A stretch of DNA of 64,000 nucleotides. It comes from a bacterium (GTDB lineage Bacteria; Hinthialibacterota; Hinthialibacteria; H5-UNCL2). How positions within the stretch are numbered: the stretch's first letter is position 1; each line of letters opens with the position of its first letter. The translations under genes were made by a program, and so were the position numbers. A model generated the notes under the pieces. It had not been told where the DNA came from and ran no database searches. It saw only the letters and a program-made list of their open reading frames with translations. The DNA lies in assembly GCA_015075175.1 (NCBI GenBank), contig JABTUV010000001.1, positions 1,167,677 to 1,231,676 of the forward strand. Direction: 5' to 3'. Shown here piece after piece: positions 28,045-41,455 of the stretch.

Positions 28045-28993
<949 letters not shown>

Positions 28994-29324
28994 CGGCAGC
29001 GGGCCGCAGGGTGGAGCGAGCGCCGCCGAGCGCCTTCGAGGTGTCGATTGGGTTCATCGTGGGGCGGTGCATCCTCCCTTGCTTCTGGCGTCATTATGCC
29101 CGGAAAAACGGTCTCAATCAAGGGGAGAGTCATCCGTGGCGGCGACGCGGCGTCCGTAGCGGCGACGTCCGTCGCCGGTCGTGTCGGCATCTGCCGACAC
29201 GGGCGCAGGAGAGCAGGGACTATGGCGGTATGGGACCGATAGGATTTGAGGCTCGAAGAAAAAGGGGCGCGTGGGCGCCTTTGGGTGTCGTTCGCCGGAG
29301 CCGTCGGTGCGCGGTGGCCAGGAG

Positions 29325-29411
29325 CCGTCGGTGCGCGGTGCGCAGTGCGCGGTGCGCAGTGCACGGTGCGCGCGGTGCGCGGTGCGCGGTGCGCGGTGCG
29401 CGGTGCGCACC

Positions 29412-29412
<1 letters not shown>
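29325..29412. repeat. GTGCGCGGTGCGCACCCTAC repeat cluster
   Basis: Tandem variants of GGTGCGCGGTGCGC end in GCGCACCCTAC exactly at the pckA stop region. The family recurs at 47555-47722, 53455-53478, 54450-54535 and 54670-54692. Confidence 0.8.
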
Positions 29413-31046
<1,634 letters not shown>

Positions 31047-31050
<4 letters not shown>

Positions 31051-32666: not shown

Positions 32667-32695
32667 TTGACATTCCATCAACTAATAATTATTAT
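32667..32695 (+). promoter_or_regulatory. Strong sigma-70-like promoter of the selenoprotein gene
   Basis: TTGACA at 32667-32672 and TATTAT at 32690-32695 with an ideal 17-base spacer, in an AT-rich island unlike the rest of the window. The next gene starts 41 bases after the -10 box. Confidence 0.75.
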
Positions 32696-32736: not shown

Positions 32737-34377
32737 ATGACGTGCATTGGACGTATTCTGGTTGGGTTGGTGGTCGGGTGGATGCTGGCGGGGCCGGCGG
32801 GAGCGGTGACTATCGCGCTGGAGCTGGTGAAGTTCGAGCAGTCGCCGGCGCTCTTGCGGGCTGGCGACGCTACCGCGGTCGAACGGCTGGCGGCCGGCAT
32901 GGCCCGCGGCCAGGCCATGCCCCTCACAGTGGAGGAGGGAAAGATCGCCGTCGATCCGGCTTACTCGCAAGTGGTCCGGAAGGAACCGGCCGGCCTCATC
33001 TGCGCCCAACCGCTGCGCGGGGTGCTAAAGATCGGCGAGAGCGCGTTCGGGTACATCTTCGACTCGACCGATCTAGCCGAGTCCGGTTTCCATCGATTGT
33101 ATTTCGACCGGAACGGGGACGGGGACCTGTCGGACGAGACGCCGCTGGAGGCGATACCCGTGCGGCGCGGTGTCAGCGGCCCGCTGGCGCGGCCGGTGAC
33201 AACGGGCGCGCGCGTCGCGCCGACAACGGCCGCCCCCGCGCGCTTCGTGCCCTCCCCGGCGTACAACTACACCAGCGCCAACTTTCCCCCCTTGGACATG
33301 CAGGTGAGATCGGGGGGGAAGACGCTGGACTATCGCGTGTGGCCTTACGTGTACGCCACCTTCACGTCCGGCGATGACGCGCAGCTGCGCAGCGGCGGCG
33401 TGACCTTCCGCCCCGGCGGCTATCGCAAGGGGCAAGTCGAGCTGGGCGGCAGGCGGATGATGGTCGTGCTCGTGGACTCCAACGGCAACGGCGCATTCAA
33501 CGATCCGCTGGTATTCCAGGCGATGGGGGCGGATGCGGCGGGGCGCGTACGGCCCGTCTTCGGCGACGCCCTGGTGGTGGCCGAGGAGGACTCCCTGGCT
33601 GCGATGCGCACGACGCTTTTGGGCTTGCGCGACGGTCTCCACGTCACGCCGCTCTACAGAGTCGGTGAGACGCTCTATGACCTGTCCGTCTCACCCTCCG
33701 GCGAAGCCGTTACGCTGGCGCCCAGCCGCGTGGCGACCGGCCGGGTCCGGTGTCCGGGCAAATCGTTTTCCGGCGTGCTCTTCAGCGAGCTGGGTTTTGT
33801 CAACCTGGTCGCAGTTGAAGGTGAGGCCGTGGAAGTCCCCGCCGGCGAGTGGAAACTCTACCAATACACGCTGGACATGGCCACGCAAGAGGCGGCGGGC
33901 GGGGCGACCGTGCCGGTCGCCGGCACGCGCAACTATACGCGCGTTTCGGCTGTGGGTACTCGTGAATCGCCGCCCGTCAAGGTGGAGAGGGGCAGGACGA
34001 CCACGTTGCCCTACGGCGGTCCGTACAAGACGGTTGTGCACGCCGCGCCGGGAAGCGCCCCCAAGGACGCACCACCGGGCGACTACGCGCAACTGAGCCT
34101 GTCGCTGGTCGGCAAGGGCGGCGAAGTGCTGACCGGCCTGTACCTGAACGGCCGGCGTCCGGCGGCTCCGACCTTTGTCGTGGCCGACTCGAGGGGCAAA
34201 AAGATCGACGCCGGCGCGTTCCAATTCGGCTGAGGCTTCACCTGTTCGTACTCATGGCGAGTACCTGAAAACCCCGATCGTGAATATCGCATCAAGGTGA
34301 ATCTGACCGCCGAGCCGTTCAAGATCGACGCGCGGGAGACGAGCATTCTGAAACGGAGCGACTTGTTGGCGCTGTAA
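32737..34377 (+). CDS. Candidate secreted selenoprotein (in-frame TGA at 34231-34233)
   Basis: No known family is recognised. The ATG at 32737 has GGAGG upstream and begins a signal peptide (GRILVGLVVGWMLAGPAGA). The mature protein has two Ca-binding-like loops, DRNGDGDLSDE (about residue 124) and DSNGNGAFND (about 247), in beta-rich sequence. At codon 499 the frame meets TGA but then continues without stops for 47 codons to TAA at 34375: GFTCSYSWRVPENPDREYRI, then KVNLTAEPFKIDARETSILK. Read as selenocysteine this gives QFGUGFTC, a U-x3-C redox-like motif. A hairpin follows the TGA, and selC, selA, selD and selB lie just downstream. Without Sec insertion the product ends at 34233 (498 residues). 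Confidence 0.78.
34248..34264 (+). promoter_or_regulatory. SECIS-like hairpin after the in-frame TGA
   Basis: GTACTC-ATGGC-GAGTAC forms a perfect 6-bp stem with a 5-base loop. The apical loop begins 20 bases after the TGA, within the usual spacing of bacterial SECIS elements. The loop contains two G residues, though not in its first two positions. Confidence 0.6.
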
Positions 34378-34569: not shown

Positions 34570-34665
34570 GGAGGTAATCGGGGCCCGGTGGTCCTCGCGG
34601 CCTTCAAAGCCGTCTGCGTCGCGCCGCGCGTGACGGGTGGGTTCGACTCCCATTTACCTCCGCCA
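34570..34665 (+). tRNA. selC: tRNA-Sec (anticodon TCA)
   Basis: An 8-bp acceptor stem GGAGGTAA pairs with TTACCTCC, then G and an encoded CCA. The anticodon TCA is at 34604-34606 within CTTCAAA on a GGC/GCC stem. A very long variable arm (about 34613-34636) and a T loop TTCGACT follow. The 96-base length and 8-bp acceptor stem are diagnostic for selenocysteine tRNA, which decodes UGA. Confidence 0.96.
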
Positions 34666-34908: not shown

Positions 34909-35166
34909 GTGAGAAAACGAATCCTCCTCGGCTGCCTGATGACCCTTTTGGGCGCCGGCATGATCGCCGCCTCCAGCACGCGCGCGTTTCCCGTTTACGA
35001 CGAAGACCTGCCGGAAGATGAGTTCGCTTTCTATCAGGAAGTGTCGGAAATCCGGGTGACCTGGGACGGCACGTTTGCAGGCGTGCTGCGTTCATCCTCG
35101 ACCGGTCGGCTGGTGACGACGTACGACCGCGATGCCCCCCCGGAGCGGCCGGCATGTCCCACCTGA
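34909..35166 (+). CDS. Small secreted protein of unknown function
   Basis: An 85-residue protein starting at GTG (34909) with a signal peptide (RKRILLGCLMTLLGAGMIAA) and an acidic mature region (YDEDLPEDEFAFYQEVSEIR). No family is recognised. A seven-C run at 35133-35139 may hide a frameshift: with one extra C the protein would end PPGAAGMSHLNRIIHGPQGA and so on, with a TGA overlapping the ATG of the next gene (ATGA at 35240). It sits between selC and the iron-sulfur protein, in the same direction. Confidence 0.55.
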   Translation: MRKRILLGCLMTLLGAGMIAASSTRAFPVYDEDLPEDEFAFYQEVSEIRVTWDGTFAGVLRSSSTGRLVTTYDRDAPPERPACPT

Positions 35167-35239
35167 ACCGAATAATTCATGGGCCGCAGGGCGCGGCTCC
35201 TGTCGTCCCACGAGTCGCAGTCGTCCCGGTTGGTCCGGC

Positions 35240-36103
35240 ATGAAATCCGGGCTGCTGCGACCCGTGCGGCTTGTCTTCAACCTGCTGCGCCGCCGCCGCG
35301 TCTGGCAGTGGGGCTCGCTGGTCCTCTTGAACCTGCCGCTGTTGGGTCTCTGGACTCAGGTCTGCGCGCCCGTGCTCAACTGCCATTCCTGCCCCTGGGC
35401 CGTGTTCGCCTGTCCCATCGGCGTGGCCGGACATCTCATCTCCTGGCACGTGTTCCCGCTCTACGTTCTGGGCACGATGCTCGTCTGGGGCGCGCTCTTC
35501 GGGCGCATCGTGTGCGGTTGGGTCTGTCCCTTCGGCCTCGTGCAGGATTATCTCCACAAGATTCCCTCGCCCAAGTGGAGGCTGCCCAGGTGGACGCGCT
35601 ACCTCAAGTACGGCGTCCTCTTGACGAGCGTGATCCTCGTGCCGTTTTTCATCGGACTCTCCAACCGCGCGTTTTTCTGCTCGCTGTGTCCGGTGGGGAC
35701 GCTGGAGTCGATGCTGCCGGCGGTCGTGGCGTCCGGCGACTGGGCAGCGTTTCTGCGCAGTTGGGCGCGCACCCTGGCGCTGATTCTGATACTTCTCTTC
35801 GGCGTGGTCGCCATGCGCAGCTTCTGCAAGACGCTCTGTCCCATCGGCGCGTTTCTGGCGCTCTGCAACCGCTTCTCGGGCTACAGCCTCCACTACAACC
35901 AGGACACCTGCTCGTCGTGCGAGCTGTGCCTGGCCGGATGCCCGATGGACGTAGACATCGCCGAGATGGAGAATAAGGCGGGAGGCGTCACGCTGACGGC
36001 GTCTTCGGAGTGCATCCTGTGCCTGAATTGCACCCGAAACTGCCACACCAGCGGGCTGTCGTGGTCGTTCTGGACTCTGGTGGGAGGGGGGAGGAAGCGA
36101 TGA
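35240..36103 (+). CDS. NapH/MauN-like 4Fe-4S membrane protein
   Basis: A 287-residue polytopic protein with four to five helices and cysteine motifs of the NapH/MauN group: NCHSCPWAVFACP, GRIVCGWVCPFGLVQD, FCSLCPVG and FCKTLCPIGAF. A C-terminal ferredoxin domain has CSSCELCLAGCPM and CILCLNCTRNCH, suggesting two 4Fe-4S clusters. The ATG at 35240 (MKSGLLRPVRL) lacks a strong ribosome site. Its last codons overlap selA by ATGA. Members pass electrons across the membrane to periplasmic partners, so a reductase for the secreted selenoprotein is an attractive but untested idea. Confidence 0.85.
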   Translation: MKSGLLRPVRLVFNLLRRRRVWQWGSLVLLNLPLLGLWTQVCAPVLNCHSCPWAVFACPIGVAGHLISWHVFPLYVLGTMLVWGALFGRIVCGWVCPFGLVQDYLHKIPSPKWRLPRWTRYLKYGVLLTSVILVPFFIGLSNRAFFCSLCPVGTLESMLPAVVASGDWAAFLRSWARTLALILILLFGVVAMRSFCKTLCPIGAFLALCNRFSGYSLHYNQDTCSSCELCLAGCPMDVDIAEMENKAGGVTLTASSECILCLNCTRNCHTSGLSWSFWTLVGGGRKR

Positions 36104-37467
36104 GCGCGGGGACGGATGCGCGGGCGCTGTTGCCGGCGGTGGATCGTGTCTTGCGCGCGATGGAAGCGAGGCCGGAGGCGTCGAGCTATGCGCCGGCTCG
36201 GCGCGCGGATGCCGCGCGGGCCGTCTTGGCGCGCCTGCGCGCCGCCCTGCCGGCGGTGGTTCCCGGCGTCGAGGAAGTCGCCGCGGAGGCGCTGGCGCTG
36301 CTGGCCGCGGAGGCCGCGGCGGGCCTGTCGCGCGCCGTCAACGGGACCGGCATCGTGTTGCATACCGGCCTTGGGCGCGCGGTTTTGGCGCCGGAGGCGG
36401 TCGCCGCCGTGGCAGCGTTGGACGGTTGTTGCACCCTGCAAATCGACCTGGAGACCGGCGCCCGGGGACGCCGCGACGCCGTCATCGCCCATCTCCTCGC
36501 CACTCTCACGGGCTGCGAAGCGGCGACCGTGGTCAACAACAACGCCGCCGCCACGCTTCTCGTTCTGGCCGCGCTGTGCGCGGGGCGGCAGGTGGTCGTC
36601 TCGCGCGGGCAGTTGATCGAAATCGGCGGCTCGTTCCGCCTGCCCGACGTCATCCAGGCCAGCGGCGCCCGCATGGTCGAGGTTGGCACGACCAACAAGA
36701 CGCACCTCCGCGATTACGAGCGCGCGCTGACGCCCGACACGGCGGCGCTGCTTCACGTCCATCCCAGCAACTATCGCATCATAGGATTCTCGCAGTCGGT
36801 TTCGCTCGCCGAGCCGGCGTCGCTGAAAGAAGGTCGAGAACTGATCCTCATCGACGACCTGGGCTGCGGCGCGCTGGTGGACCTGGCCCGGGTCGGCCTT
36901 CCCCACGAGCCGACCGTACAGGAGAGCCTGGCCGGGGGCGCGGACGTGGCGCTCTTTTCCGGCGACAAGCTGATCGGCGGGCCGCAGTGCGGCATCATCG
37001 TGGGCAAGCGGACCTGCATCGAGAAGATTCGCAAGCATCCTCTGGCGCGGGCGCTGCGCGTGGGCAAGTTCACCGTGGCCGCGCTGGAGGCGACGCTCAA
37101 GCTGTTTCTGAATCCTGAAACGGCGTGGCGGCGCGTGCCGACGCTGCGCATGTTGGCGCTGACCGTTGACGAGCTTGTTGCGCGCGCGACCGCCCTGGCG
37201 GACCGGCTTTCGCCGCTCTTTCGCGCGCGTCGTACCCACGGAGAGCGCCTGCGGGCGGCTCGCTGCCTGCCGCAAGGCTTCCCTCCGCCGCCGTGGCGCT
37301 GGCGCATCCAACGCTGTCCGCCGGCGAGTTGGCGCGCCGGTTTCGCCTCGCCCATCCCCCGGTCGTGGGGCGCATCGATAACGAGCAATATCTTCTGGAC
37401 GCGCGGACCCTACTCCCCGGCGACGAGGAGCGCATCGAGGCCGCCGCCAGAATGGTCGGGAGGCTGA
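36100..37467 (+). CDS. selA: L-seryl-tRNA(Sec) selenium transferase, frameshifted near the C-terminus
   Basis: PLP enzyme that converts seryl-tRNA(Sec) to selenocysteyl-tRNA(Sec). Motifs: AVNGTGIVLHTGLGRAVLAP, AATVVNNNAAATLLVLAALC, VVVSRGQLIEIGGSFRLPDV, LIDDLGCGAL and the PLP lysine in LFSGDKLIGGPQCGIIVG. The C-terminal part is found in another frame (AGGSLPAARLPSAAVALAHP, VVGRIDNEQYLLDARTL), so an indel is placed at about 37205-37255. The true stop is unclear because that frame stays open into selD. The ATG overlaps the iron-sulfur gene stop. Confidence 0.9.
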   Translation: MSAGTDARALLPAVDRVLRAMEARPEASSYAPARRADAARAVLARLRAALPAVVPGVEEVAAEALALLAAEAAAGLSRAVNGTGIVLHTGLGRAVLAPEAVAAVAALDGCCTLQIDLETGARGRRDAVIAHLLATLTGCEAATVVNNNAAATLLVLAALCAGRQVVVSRGQLIEIGGSFRLPDVIQASGARMVEVGTTNKTHLRDYERALTPDTAALLHVHPSNYRIIGFSQSVSLAEPASLKEGRELILIDDLGCGALVDLARVGLPHEPTVQESLAGGADVALFSGDKLIGGPQCGIIVGKRTCIEKIRKHPLARALRVGKFTVAALEATLKLFLNPETAWRRVPTLRMLALTVDELVARATALADRLSPLFRARRTHGERLRAARCLPQGFPPPPWRWRIQRCPPASWRAGFASPIPRSWGASITSNIFWTRGPYSPATRSASRPPPEWSGG

Positions 37468-37491: not shown

Positions 37492-39090
37492 ATGGTGATG
37501 GCGCGCGGCAGCATGGCGCTGGGCCATTGCATCTGCAATCCGCGGCAGCCCTGTCCCTGCGACGCGTTGATCAACGACGACCTCTGTCCCTGCGCGGGCG
37601 AGCGTCCCGATTCGGGGACCGGGGAAATCCGGCTTACGCGATTGGTCAAGAAGCCCGGCTGCGCGTCCAAGATCAACCGGAGCGACCTGTCGCGCGTGTT
37701 GGAGGGGCTGCCCCATTACCCCGATCCCAACGTGCTGGTGGGCGTGGCCGCGGGCGACGACGCCGGCGTCTACAAGCTGGAGGGCGACTACAATCTGGTC
37801 CAGACCGTGGATGTGTTTTCCCCCGTGGTCGACGACCCCTATCTTTTCGGCCGCATCGCCGCCGCCAACTCGGTGAGTGACATCTATGCCATGGGGGGAC
37901 GGCCCATCTGTGCTTTGTCCATCATAGGATTTCCCATCGAGGAGCTGCCGCACGCCGTGATGGCCGAGATTCTGCGCGGCGGCATCGACGCCATGTGGGA
38001 GGCGGGCGTCTCCGTGATCGGCGGCCACTCCATCAACGACTCGGAGATCAAGTGCGGTTTCGCGGTTTCCGGACTCGTCGAGGGGATGGGTGGCATTACC
38101 AACAGCGGGGCGCGTCCGGGGGACCAACTCGTGCTCACCAAGCCCATCGGCACGGGCGTTCTCTCCTTCGGCGCGCAGATCGGGCGCGTCTCCGAGGCGG
38201 CGTTGGCGCTGGCCGGCGAGAGCATGGCCGCGCTCAACCGCGACGCGGCGGAACTCATGCTTCAGCACGGCGCCCACGCCTGTACGGACGTCACCGGCTT
38301 CGGCCTGGCCGGCCACCTGGCGGCGATCTGCGAACACAGCCGCGTGTCGGCCCGCCTCGAGCTTTCCGCCGTTCCGTTCTTCGCGGAAGCGGTCGCCTGC
38401 GCGCGTCACGAGATCATTCCGGGTGCCGTCGAGCGCAACCGCGAGTCGTATGCGGCCGGCGTGCGCGTCATGGGCGAGGGGGAGGCGTGTCTCGTCGATC
38501 TGCTGTACGACGCCCAGACTTCCGGCGGACTTCTGGTCGCGCTCCCGCCCGAGTGGGTGGATGATTACATCCACGCCATGCAGGAGCGCGGCCATGAGGA
38601 AACGTCGTGGATCGGCGAGATCATCGAGCCGGGGCCGCGCGCGATCCTGGTCGCCTTGGGCGAGCCGCTCAATCTGATCGGAGAGTATCGCGAGCCGGCG
38701 CCCGCCGAACCTGCGTCGGTCGTCGCGCAAACATCGTGCTGCGATGATCCGCCCGTGCTGGAGTCCTCTCCGGCGTGTTGCGGGGAGTCCGGCGCCATGA
38801 GCAGGGAGGAGACCGTGCCGTCCAATGCCCAACAGGCCGCGGAAACTTTCCGCGCCATGATGAAGGCCGCCGGTGAACCCGGCCTGGTCGACGCGCGCAC
38901 CAAGAAGCTCGTCGCCATCGCGCTTTCCATCGTCGAGAAGTGCGAGCCGTGTCTCAAGCATCACGTCAGGAGCGCCCGAGACATGGGCATCAGCATGGAG
39001 GAGATCGAGGAGATCGCCTGGCTGGCCACGTCCTTCTCCGGTTGTACGGGCCGCATGTTCTACCAGGAGCAACTCAAGGAGTTGTCCTGA
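37492..39090 (+). CDS. selD: Selenophosphate synthetase with Cys-rich N-terminus and fused AhpD-like domain
   Basis: A 532-residue protein. Residues 8-40 hold a cysteine cluster CIC-x5-CPC-x7-CPC, reminiscent of ferredoxin-thioredoxin reductase CPC/CHC motifs but with different spacing. The SelD core (about 48-410) follows: PGCASKI with the catalytic-type Cys, VDVFSPVVDDPYLFGRIAAA, GGHSINDSEIKCGFAVSGL and DAQTSGGLLVALP. A Cys-rich linker (TSCCDD, PACCGE) leads to a carboxymuconolactone decarboxylase/AhpD-like domain (about 443-532) with CEPCLKHH. An internal GTG at 38815 with GGGAGGAG upstream could also yield the AhpD-like part alone. It makes selenophosphate for SelA. Confidence 0.92.
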   Translation: MVMARGSMALGHCICNPRQPCPCDALINDDLCPCAGERPDSGTGEIRLTRLVKKPGCASKINRSDLSRVLEGLPHYPDPNVLVGVAAGDDAGVYKLEGDYNLVQTVDVFSPVVDDPYLFGRIAAANSVSDIYAMGGRPICALSIIGFPIEELPHAVMAEILRGGIDAMWEAGVSVIGGHSINDSEIKCGFAVSGLVEGMGGITNSGARPGDQLVLTKPIGTGVLSFGAQIGRVSEAALALAGESMAALNRDAAELMLQHGAHACTDVTGFGLAGHLAAICEHSRVSARLELSAVPFFAEAVACARHEIIPGAVERNRESYAAGVRVMGEGEACLVDLLYDAQTSGGLLVALPPEWVDDYIHAMQERGHEETSWIGEIIEPGPRAILVALGEPLNLIGEYREPAPAEPASVVAQTSCCDDPPVLESSPACCGESGAMSREETVPSNAQQAAETFRAMMKAAGEPGLVDARTKKLVAIALSIVEKCEPCLKHHVRSARDMGISMEEIEEIAWLATSFSGCTGRMFYQEQLKELS

Positions 39091-39435: not shown

Positions 39436-41455
39436 ATGTCCCCCCGCCCGCCAGGAATGCTCAGCCAGGCCGAAAACCCCGATGTGCTCCTGATGATCGG
39501 CACGGCGGGCCACGTGGACCACGGCAAGACCCGGCTGGTGCGTTTTCTCACCGGTTGTGAGACCGACCGGCTCAAGGAGGAGCAGGAGCGCGGGCTGTCC
39601 ATCGAGCTGGGTTTTGCGCCCTGCTCGCTGGGACCGGGCATCGCCTGCGGGATCGTGGACGTGCCCGGCCACGAGCAGTTCATCCGAAACATGGTCGCGG
39701 GCGCGGCGGGCATGGACCTTTGCATTCTCGTCGTCGCGGCCGATGATGGCGTCATGCCTCAAACTGTCGAGCACCTGCAAATCATGCAGTTTCTGGGCGT
39801 GCAGGCGGGGCTGGTCGCGATCACCAAGATTGATCTGGTCGAACCGGAGCGCATCGAGGAGGTGCGGCGCGAGATCGAGGCGTTGGTCTCTGGTACGTTT
39901 CTGGAAGGCGCGGCCGTCTGTCCCGTATCGTCGGAGACGTTCGCCGGTTTCGAGCGGTTTTATACCACGCTGGTCGACGTTGCGCTGCACGCGAAGGTGC
40001 GGCGGCAGCGCGGCGTATTCCGCATGCCGGTGGAACGGGTGTTCATTTCTCCGGGACACGGGACGGTCGTCACGGGCATACCGCTGGCGGGTCGCGTGCG
40101 CGAGGGCGAGGAGGTGGAAATCCAACCGGGCGGGGCGCGCGCGCGCGTGCGCGGCATTCAGCGCTTTCTGCGCGCGGCTGCCGAGGGCGGGGCGGGGCAG
40201 TGCCTTGCGCTCAACCTGGCCGGACTGTCCCGCGAGGCGGTCGAGCGCGGCGCGGTCGTCGCCGCGCCAGGGTACGTCGGCCCCGTATCGATTTTGCTGG
40301 CGCGCCTTTCCACGTGCGACAATCTCAGTCCGCCCCTGCGAAGCGGGGAGGAAGTGCGAGTCCACACGGGGACGGTCGAAGTCCAAGCGAGGCTATCGCT
40401 CTATGATGTCGCCGCCCTGCCGCGCGGGGCGGAGGGTTTCGCCAGCTTGCACTTGGCCCATCCCGTCGCCGCCTCGCCGACCGATCGACTGGTCGTCCGG
40501 CGCAACTCGCCCTCGAGGACGGTAGCCGGCGGCGTGATTGTGCGCGCCTTGGCCGAAAAGCCGCGCGCCTCGCGCGGAGACCGCGGCGGGCTGGCGGCGC
40601 GCTGGCAGGCGTTCGCCACGCCCCGAGGCGCGCTGCCTCCATCACTTCACCGCCGCAGGGATGGCCGGAAGTACGGTGGACCAGGCGGCGATCGAGATAC
40701 TTCTGTCGAGCTCCGATACGCAGGAAATCGCCAACCGCCTGCTTTCCCGCGGCGCGTTGATGGCCGGTTCGGTCGGGAGTCGTCTCTTTACTTTCACGGG
40801 GGCGGAAGCCTTGCAGGGAGCCATCCTGGCCCACCTGGAAACGCATCGGGAGAAAAACCCGAGCGCGTTCGGTCCGACGCTGGCCGAGGCCGCGGCCGGT
40901 TTACGCCTGTGCGAGGGCGCGCTCCTTTGCGGCGTGGCCTGGCTGGAAAGTGAGAAGAAGGTCGTGCGGCGCGAGAACCGCATCGGCCTGCCCGCGGAAA
41001 CGGCGCGCTTCGACGAGCGGCGCGCCCGGCTCGTGGCCGAGATCGAGCGGATTATGCGCGACGGGAAGTACGCCACTCCACGCCCGGATGAACTGCCGCA
41101 ACTGCTGTCCGCCCCCGCGGCCGAGGTGGAATCCCTGCTGGAGTATCTCTGCCTGTCCGGCGCGCTCGTGCGACTGGGCAAGAACGTCGTCTTTCACTCC
41201 CATTGGATGGCGGAAGCGGAGCGGCTCGTGGTCGATTGCATTGAAAGGAATGGCGTTCTCGACAGCGCCGACTTCAAGAACATGATCCACTCCTCGCGCA
41301 AGTATGCGCTGGCGTTGCTGGATTACTTCGACGCGGTTCACGTCACGAGCCGGGTCGGCAACCTGCGGCGCCTGCATCCCGCCTACCTGCGCAAGCGCGG
41401 AGAGATTGGCTCGCGCAGAGACGCAGAGGACGCGGAGAAGGAAGCGGAATTCTAA
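39436..41455 (+). CDS. selB: Selenocysteine-specific elongation factor SelB, frameshifted
   Basis: GTPase that brings selenocysteyl-tRNA(Sec) to UGA codons with a SECIS. G domain: GTAGHVDHGKTRLVR (P-loop), VDVPGHEQFIRNMVAGAAG, ITKIDLVEPER. EF-Tu-like domains follow (FRMPVERVFISPGHGTVVTG). The C-terminal winged-helix repeats that bind SECIS are in the next frame from about 40640: FGPTLAEAAAGLRLCEGALL, and FKNMIHSSRKYALALLDYFD near the end. One indel at 40580-40650 would restore about 670 residues. The last residues (SRRDAEDAEKEAEF) are encoded by a dispersed CGCAGAGACGC repeat. It converges on the next gene with a 4-base overlap. Confidence 0.92.

Follow-up and report, generated by a model that had tools for sequence, protein, structure and literature searches.

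The gene located at positions 32737–34377 on the forward strand of the window—by which the whole analysed stretch of 64,000 nucleotides from contig JABTUV010000001.1 of a bacterium of the Hinthialibacterota is meant throughout—very likely encodes a genuine selenoprotein of 546 amino acids, in which the UGA codon at 34231–34233 is decoded as selenocysteine at residue 499 (Sec499). This conclusion comes from comparison, there being no experiment that shows the selenocysteine itself. The protein belongs to a family, probably undescribed until now, that comprises two architectures, i.e. a secreted form and one with the Sec domain joined to about eight transmembrane (TM) helices. With regard to function, the reading preferred here is that of an exported selenoprotein working outside the cytoplasm in a selenol/thiol redox relay that draws low-potential electrons from the membrane; a probability of roughly 0.6 is given to it, and the reaction itself is inferred.

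A first-pass annotation of the window, made from the sequence alone, had proposed that the frame starting at 32737 runs through the in-frame TGA for another 47 sense codons up to a TAA stop (34375–34377), that the context QFG-U-GFTC contains a U-x3-C pair, and that a 6-bp hairpin has its apical loop 20 bases past the TGA. All three claims held: the partner cysteine, Cys503 (34243–34245), is present and invariant across the family alignment, and the hairpin is found at 34248–34264 on the forward strand, with its stem formed by 34248–34253 and 34259–34264 and its 5-nt loop starting 20 nt past the TGA. It should be pointed out that post-TGA open frames are frequent in this GC-rich window—of its 45 long open runs ending in TGA, 25 are followed by no fewer than 47 sense codons—so that the open frame was dropped as evidence by itself. 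The same was done with the single-sequence fold of the hairpin as standalone evidence, since it was no better than the folds of shuffles (z = 0.3). Because the open frame and the single-sequence hairpin are both weak when taken alone, homologues and covariation were used as the test. The strong promoter of its own ascribed to the gene (TTGACA-17-TATTAT, 32667–32695, forward strand) is present as a promoter-like site, but the evidence for it is weak, one such site having been observed against 0.5 expected by chance in shuffles.

Concerning the homologues, a tblastn search of 60 related genomes revealed two more genomes from the same phylum, each having two copies and every copy exactly one in-frame TGA, and a profile search of the window's GTDB phylum recovered the same three genomes. 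A profile-guided scan of 85,000 species genomes yielded 61 loci, including a few remote rows that match the N-terminal part only; beside the window's own phylum, the family thus ranges over Planctomycetota, which dominate among these loci (Pirellulales, Phycisphaerae and others), as well as Verrucomicrobiota, Sumerlaeota and Armatimonadota. Scanning the genome contigs with the single protein as a query gave no matches, whereas the alignment as a query did find the relatives. In the relatives spanning the Sec site, with the TGA read as open, the TGA occupies the same column in several phyla and is followed by G(F/G)(T/S)CxYSWRVP. All 46 aligned full-length relatives have TGA as the Sec codon and a cysteine at +4, the residues invariant in this 46-member, near-full-length alignment being G498, U499, G500, C503 and W507. 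The motif F-x-(Y/F)-G-U-G-x-x-C was matched 75 times, with three matches spurious by chance, leaving approximately 72 sites. The protein sequence beyond the codon appears to be under constraint, 23 of the 38 post-UGA changes among close relatives being synonymous (21 of 35 outside the hairpin), while roughly a quarter would be expected without it. Homologues with TGA at the site and conservation continuing past it, which the first-pass annotation had named as confirmation, were therefore found, and homologues all ending at QFG, which it had named as refutation, were not seen among the relatives.

Homologues with cysteine in place of selenocysteine are usual, though not obligatory, for bacterial selenoproteins. 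No ordinary Cys homologue at the Sec site was seen among all the relatives; the sole sequence with Cys (TGT) in that column is a degenerate paralogue (L056:3720–5745). The motif of this paralogue is rearranged to GCDTLSRYCFW, and a Sec-to-Cys conversion is possible there.

The hairpin, which had been proposed to be a bacterial SECIS element, covaries like a real one. In a gapless alignment of 62 sequences anchored at the TGA, the common stem consists of 6 bp (columns 18–23 with 29–34) closed by a 5-nt loop; 98.7% of the cells of the helix are paired and in five of the six pairs, both partners are altered in at least one sequence. The compensated cells number 27 vs 3.4 in shuffles, the controls with a slid structure exhibit at most one double-sided pair, and alignment-based structure prediction recovers the same helix unaided. 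When run over the 5 Mb genome from which the window comes, the covariance model of the element returns two sites, both of them belonging to members of the family with an in-frame TGA, and it also recovers the sites of L105 and L106, neither of which was used in building it.

The order of the Sec machinery downstream, given in the first-pass annotation as selC followed by selA, selD and selB, held as well, all these genes lying on the forward strand: selC (34570–34665) is recognized as tRNA-SeC by ARAGORN and as RF01852 by Rfam with 68.4 bits, selA covers 36100–37467, selD—fused to an AhpD/CMD-type domain—covers 37492–39090, and selB covers 39436–41404. Two genes intervening between selC and selA, one for a Cys-tailed membrane protein (34909–35166) and one for a polyferredoxin (35132–36103), had been missed there, and the frame breaks, one in selA (between about 37212 and 37254 in the assembly) and one in selB (between about 40620 and 40643), had not been mentioned. 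As homologous sequence is present on either side of each break, continuing in another frame beyond it, an error of the draft assembly is considered likelier than decay in this metagenome-assembled genome (MAG), a judgement made without reads; a damaged Sec machinery in this single organism remains possible. A phosphoenolpyruvate carboxykinase-like frame at 28849–31050 of the window, the C-terminus of which looks shifted, hints at further assembly indels. The C-terminal AhpD/CMD-type fusion of SelD is apparently also present in the genome G011 (L011:11507–13177).

A true tRNA-Sec was found in 3 of the 14 genomes of the window's phylum, exactly those with the family (p = 0.003). The SelB protein scores above the cut-off in two of these three, with none above it in the remaining G011, a genome that is 91% complete. 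The tRNA-Sec matches at the Rfam cut-off in G005 and G006 were rejected, as ARAGORN reads them as tRNA-Ser, and the remaining best candidates checked in the phylum are likewise tRNA-Ser. The selC gene is present in 27 of the 34 family-bearing MAGs. The use of selenocysteine is common in Planctomycetota, with tRNA-Sec in 105 of the 149 sampled genomes, and for that very reason the co-occurrence of selC with the family within Planctomycetota does not discriminate and was set aside as uninformative (p = 0.4).

As far as the gene neighbourhood is concerned, 50 loci with a Sec site were surveyed. A sel gene is located within 12 kb of the Sec site in 13 of them, against about one expected, and a NapH/MauN-like polyferredoxin is found near the site in 17; many family loci have neither a sel gene nor the polyferredoxin on the surrounding stretch examined. 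In the window, the NapH/MauN-like membrane polyferredoxin (35132–36103, forward strand; Fer4_5 and Fer4_10) is preceded on the same strand by the small protein at 34909–35166, which has one N-terminal TM-like stretch and the C-terminus ...PACPT and is a candidate thiol-arm partner. In 15 of 16 loci, the window included (i.e. 14 of the 15 others), the polyferredoxin is preceded by a small protein ending in CP(T/S), two of these loci being truncated where the contig begins and showing no more than the tail; as background, such ends occur in 19 of the 6226 long frames of all loci, most of these being the small proteins in question. A double-cubane reductase together with its activase was detected in 4 of the 50 loci (L024, L049, L062 and L063), and in L011 and L064 the family adjoins genes for ResA/TlpA-like proteins. 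The most complete islands (L024, L047, L049 and L055) bring together, in various combinations, selA, selB, selC, the SelD-AhpD fusion, the small membrane protein, the polyferredoxin, the double-cubane reductase with activase, a membrane Sec protein and between one and three genes of the secreted Sec form. Two side observations may be added: in L049:2–4412 and L024:4203–6195, the Sec island encloses the genes for the double-cubane-cluster anaerobic reductase and its activase, and a contig of the Sedimentisphaerales (L069:1557–13600) carries a dense selenoprotein cluster of at least five Sec-motif genes adjoining selA and selB.

The protein of the window begins with a signal-peptide-like segment (32737–32805), which is its sole hydrophobic stretch according to the sequence and a hydropathy scan, no dedicated predictor having been applied. 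Export from the cytoplasm, as claimed in the first-pass annotation, is consistent with this stretch, being a prediction only and the export itself inferred. Both of the calcium-loop-like segments noticed there, DxNxDGDLxDE (33106–33138) and DSNGNGAFND (33475–33504), are conserved across the family, with D247 of the second one invariant, and a weak GEVED match was obtained for 9 of the 46 relatives; that these EF-hand-like loops of the body bind calcium is inferred from their sequence, without binding data. The AlphaFold2 model based on the family alignment reaches a mean pLDDT of 86.5 and a pTM of 0.85, with pLDDT of about 84–95 past the UGA, and the C-terminal Sec domain (34018–34374), when modelled alone, attains a pLDDT of 91.1 and is beta-rich and Ig-like. 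By their sequence positions, Sec499 and Cys503 fall into the loop between strands 489–494 and 505–508. The Sec site is thus predicted to sit on a hairpin of an Ig/macroglobulin-like domain and not on a thioredoxin fold, which was not found around the motif, either in the model or as a thioredoxin family in Pfam and NCBIfam. The fold neighbours of the domain are the macroglobulin (MG) domains of complement and alpha-2-macroglobulin, copper proteins of the FetP/P19 type and SoxYZ; these matches are middling (Z below 8), are common to many unrelated Ig-like proteins and do not settle the function. A sequence search of the PDB gave nothing credible for the whole protein and a weak match to an adhesin Ig-like domain for the Sec domain.

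In the membrane form of the family, several TM-like stretches, as a rule about eight, come after the Sec domain (L049, L055, L035, L066, L067 and L104). One such member, with the Sec motif YG-U-GGYC and about eight TM-like stretches, is encoded on another contig of the window's own genome (C48:229041, corresponding to L104:8284–10464, G000:C48), and the organism therefore has at least two members of the family. The suggestion of the first-pass annotation that the secreted gene is the main client of the island consequently remains partly open: it is possible, given this second, membrane-bound member and a search for other selenoprotein families in the genome that was not exhaustive.

The same annotation had called the selenoprotein undescribed, and this is supported. 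The window protein has no match in NCBIfam (2025–2026) at E ≤ 1, the 46 members yield there one chance flagellin match only and the membrane form none, and no Pfam family (2025–2026) covers the gene. None of the 119 prokaryotic selenoprotein families and subfamilies tabulated in a 2026 review is alike in motif, fold or export (PMC13188914); the families of Haft and Tolstoy 2025 are, according to that review, NCBIfam models (PMC13188914), and no NCBIfam model matches. In an earlier paper on selenoproteins of Planctomycetes, the criteria for candidates were an in-frame UGA, a SECIS and homology to selenoproteins already known (PMC4807772). No earlier description was met with in the literature searched for the motif or for a selenoprotein linked to Planctomycetes or NapH. 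The family is therefore likely to be new, with the reservation that the coverage of the relevant papers is incomplete and priority not certain. The authors of deep-Sep state that their method may miss families without Cys homologues (PMC12013277), and the almost purely Sec nature of the present family would explain a miss by methods of that type.

With bacterial selenoproteins in general, the family shares the decoding of UGA by selA, selB, selC and selD, the hairpin within about 20 nt, and the selenocysteine with a nearby cysteine, whereas its U-x3-C spacing with SWRVP, its export and its Ig-like fold have no counterpart among the 119 tabulated families. Similarity to MG2 (Pfam PF01835) was recorded for 4 of 65 Sec-domain members at E ≤ 0.01 (best E 2.7e-6), the window protein itself giving no match, and the predicted fold is similar to that of MG domains (2p9r is matched by Foldseek with a probability of 1.00 at E 0.01, and the Z values from VIA go up to 7.9); the family, however, lacks the alpha-2-macroglobulin architecture and possesses the Sec/Cys hairpin. 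The neighbouring polyferredoxin matches the NapH/MauN ferredoxin model TIGR02163 with E 1.3e-18, but with 67.4 bits against a cut-off of 213 bits it is a relative and not a member. In structure, the periplasmic Ig-like copper proteins FetP, P19 and FtrA are among the closest neighbours that the Sec domain has, and systems of the FtrA type include a NapH-like polyferredoxin, too, a parallel that is no more than a lead; no sequence similarity to them was found, however, and their Z values tie with those of unrelated Ig-like domains. The thiosulphate carriers SoxY and SoxZ have an Ig-like fold that appears among the Foldseek neighbours (2oxh and 1v8h). In SoxY, the substrate is bound to a Cys arm at the C-terminus, and Sox is not known to contain selenocysteine; the resemblance may serve as a mere analogy for a flexible thiol arm. 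In the island of L049, the reductase scores 401.6 bits with the double-cubane anaerobic reductase model NF040772 (cut-off 350) and the activase 249.7 bits with TIGR00241 (cut-off 125.4), the homologues in L024, L062 and L063 having been found by tblastn; this system was not found beside the window gene, its linkage being confined to the four loci mentioned above.

Put together, the proposed mechanism starts with SelB, tRNA-Sec and the hairpin 3' of the codon, which—as strongly supported—would decode the UGA at 34231–34233 as selenocysteine. The finished protein is predicted to leave the cytoplasm as a beta-rich body containing the calcium-loop-like segments and a C-terminal Ig/macroglobulin-like domain, in whose hairpin loop the pair Sec499...Cys503 is predicted to sit. 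The two residues would most likely form a reversible selenenylsulphide, i.e. an extracytoplasmic redox centre. Electrons may cross the membrane from the neighbouring NapH/MauN-like polyferredoxin, probably by way of the small membrane-tethered protein and its Cys-Pro-Thr tail; in many genomes, the membrane-embedded relative with the same Sec domain may represent a further electron route, and in some, the double-cubane reductase may be the source of the low-potential electrons. It should be noted that all these statements on function are inferred from neighbourhood and fold without any assay, and that the substrate is not indicated.

Two rival explanations leave the selenocysteine conclusion as it stands. 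In one, the Sec/Cys pair of a genuine selenoprotein would bind a metal or metalloid (copper, mercury, arsenic or iron) outside the cell and the polyferredoxin would reduce the bound metal. The presence of FetP, P19 and FtrA (Z 7–8) as well as CopC among the fold neighbours of the Sec domain, together with the calcium-loop-like body, speaks for it; these Z values, however, tie with those of complement and macroglobulin domains and may reflect just a common Ig-like arrangement, and the invariant columns contain neither His nor Met, so that metal binding appears unlikely. In the other, a genuine selenoprotein would act at the cell surface as an antioxidant enzyme reducing peroxides or disulphides independently of the polyferredoxin. 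This could draw on the ResA/TlpA-like genes in L011 and L064, on the AhpD-type domain fused to SelD in the island and on the fact that most characterized selenoproteins are redox enzymes (PMC13188914), but the gene that recurs next to the family codes for an Fe-S electron carrier of the membrane, and four loci have the double-cubane anaerobic reductase, which would not be expected for a role in oxidative stress; it is thus judged improbable as well.

The remaining rivals question the selenocysteine itself. That the TGA is a real stop, the 47 codons beyond it being a decayed or unrelated frame, could be argued from the frequency of long post-TGA frames in the GC-rich window and from the broken selA and selB frames; the possibility is all but excluded, since conservation of the TGA and of the protein downstream extends across phyla, covariation is seen in the SECIS and most post-UGA changes are synonymous. 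Reading of the UGA as some other amino acid, by general suppression or a reassigned code, is very hard to maintain: no evidence supporting it was found, selC, selA, selB and selD adjoin the gene, the hairpin would be unnecessary, and in the window's phylum the distribution of selC follows that of the family.

Based on the above results, a widespread family is added to the selenoproteins, of a sort that current methods are built to miss. In this family, selenocysteine is predicted to be carried by an Ig-like domain rather than by a thioredoxin fold and to lie outside the cytoplasm; it occurs in both of the architectures and is linked, by inference, to an electron route in the membrane. Automatic gene prediction in public genomes would as a rule truncate these proteins at the UGA, so that the presumed active end goes missing. 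The family also suggests a reason for the use of selenocysteine in a part of Planctomycetota, where tRNA-Sec is common. A bolder reading, for which the case falls a little short of even odds, is that the soluble and the membrane-embedded Sec-x3-Cys/Ig-like proteins form one extracytoplasmic redox system, with low-potential electrons passing across the membrane from the polyferredoxin to these proteins by way of a membrane-tethered Cys-Pro-Thr arm, and with the whole Sec machinery gathered in one island beside them; if this were true, the island would be a main reason why these bacteria keep selenocysteine.
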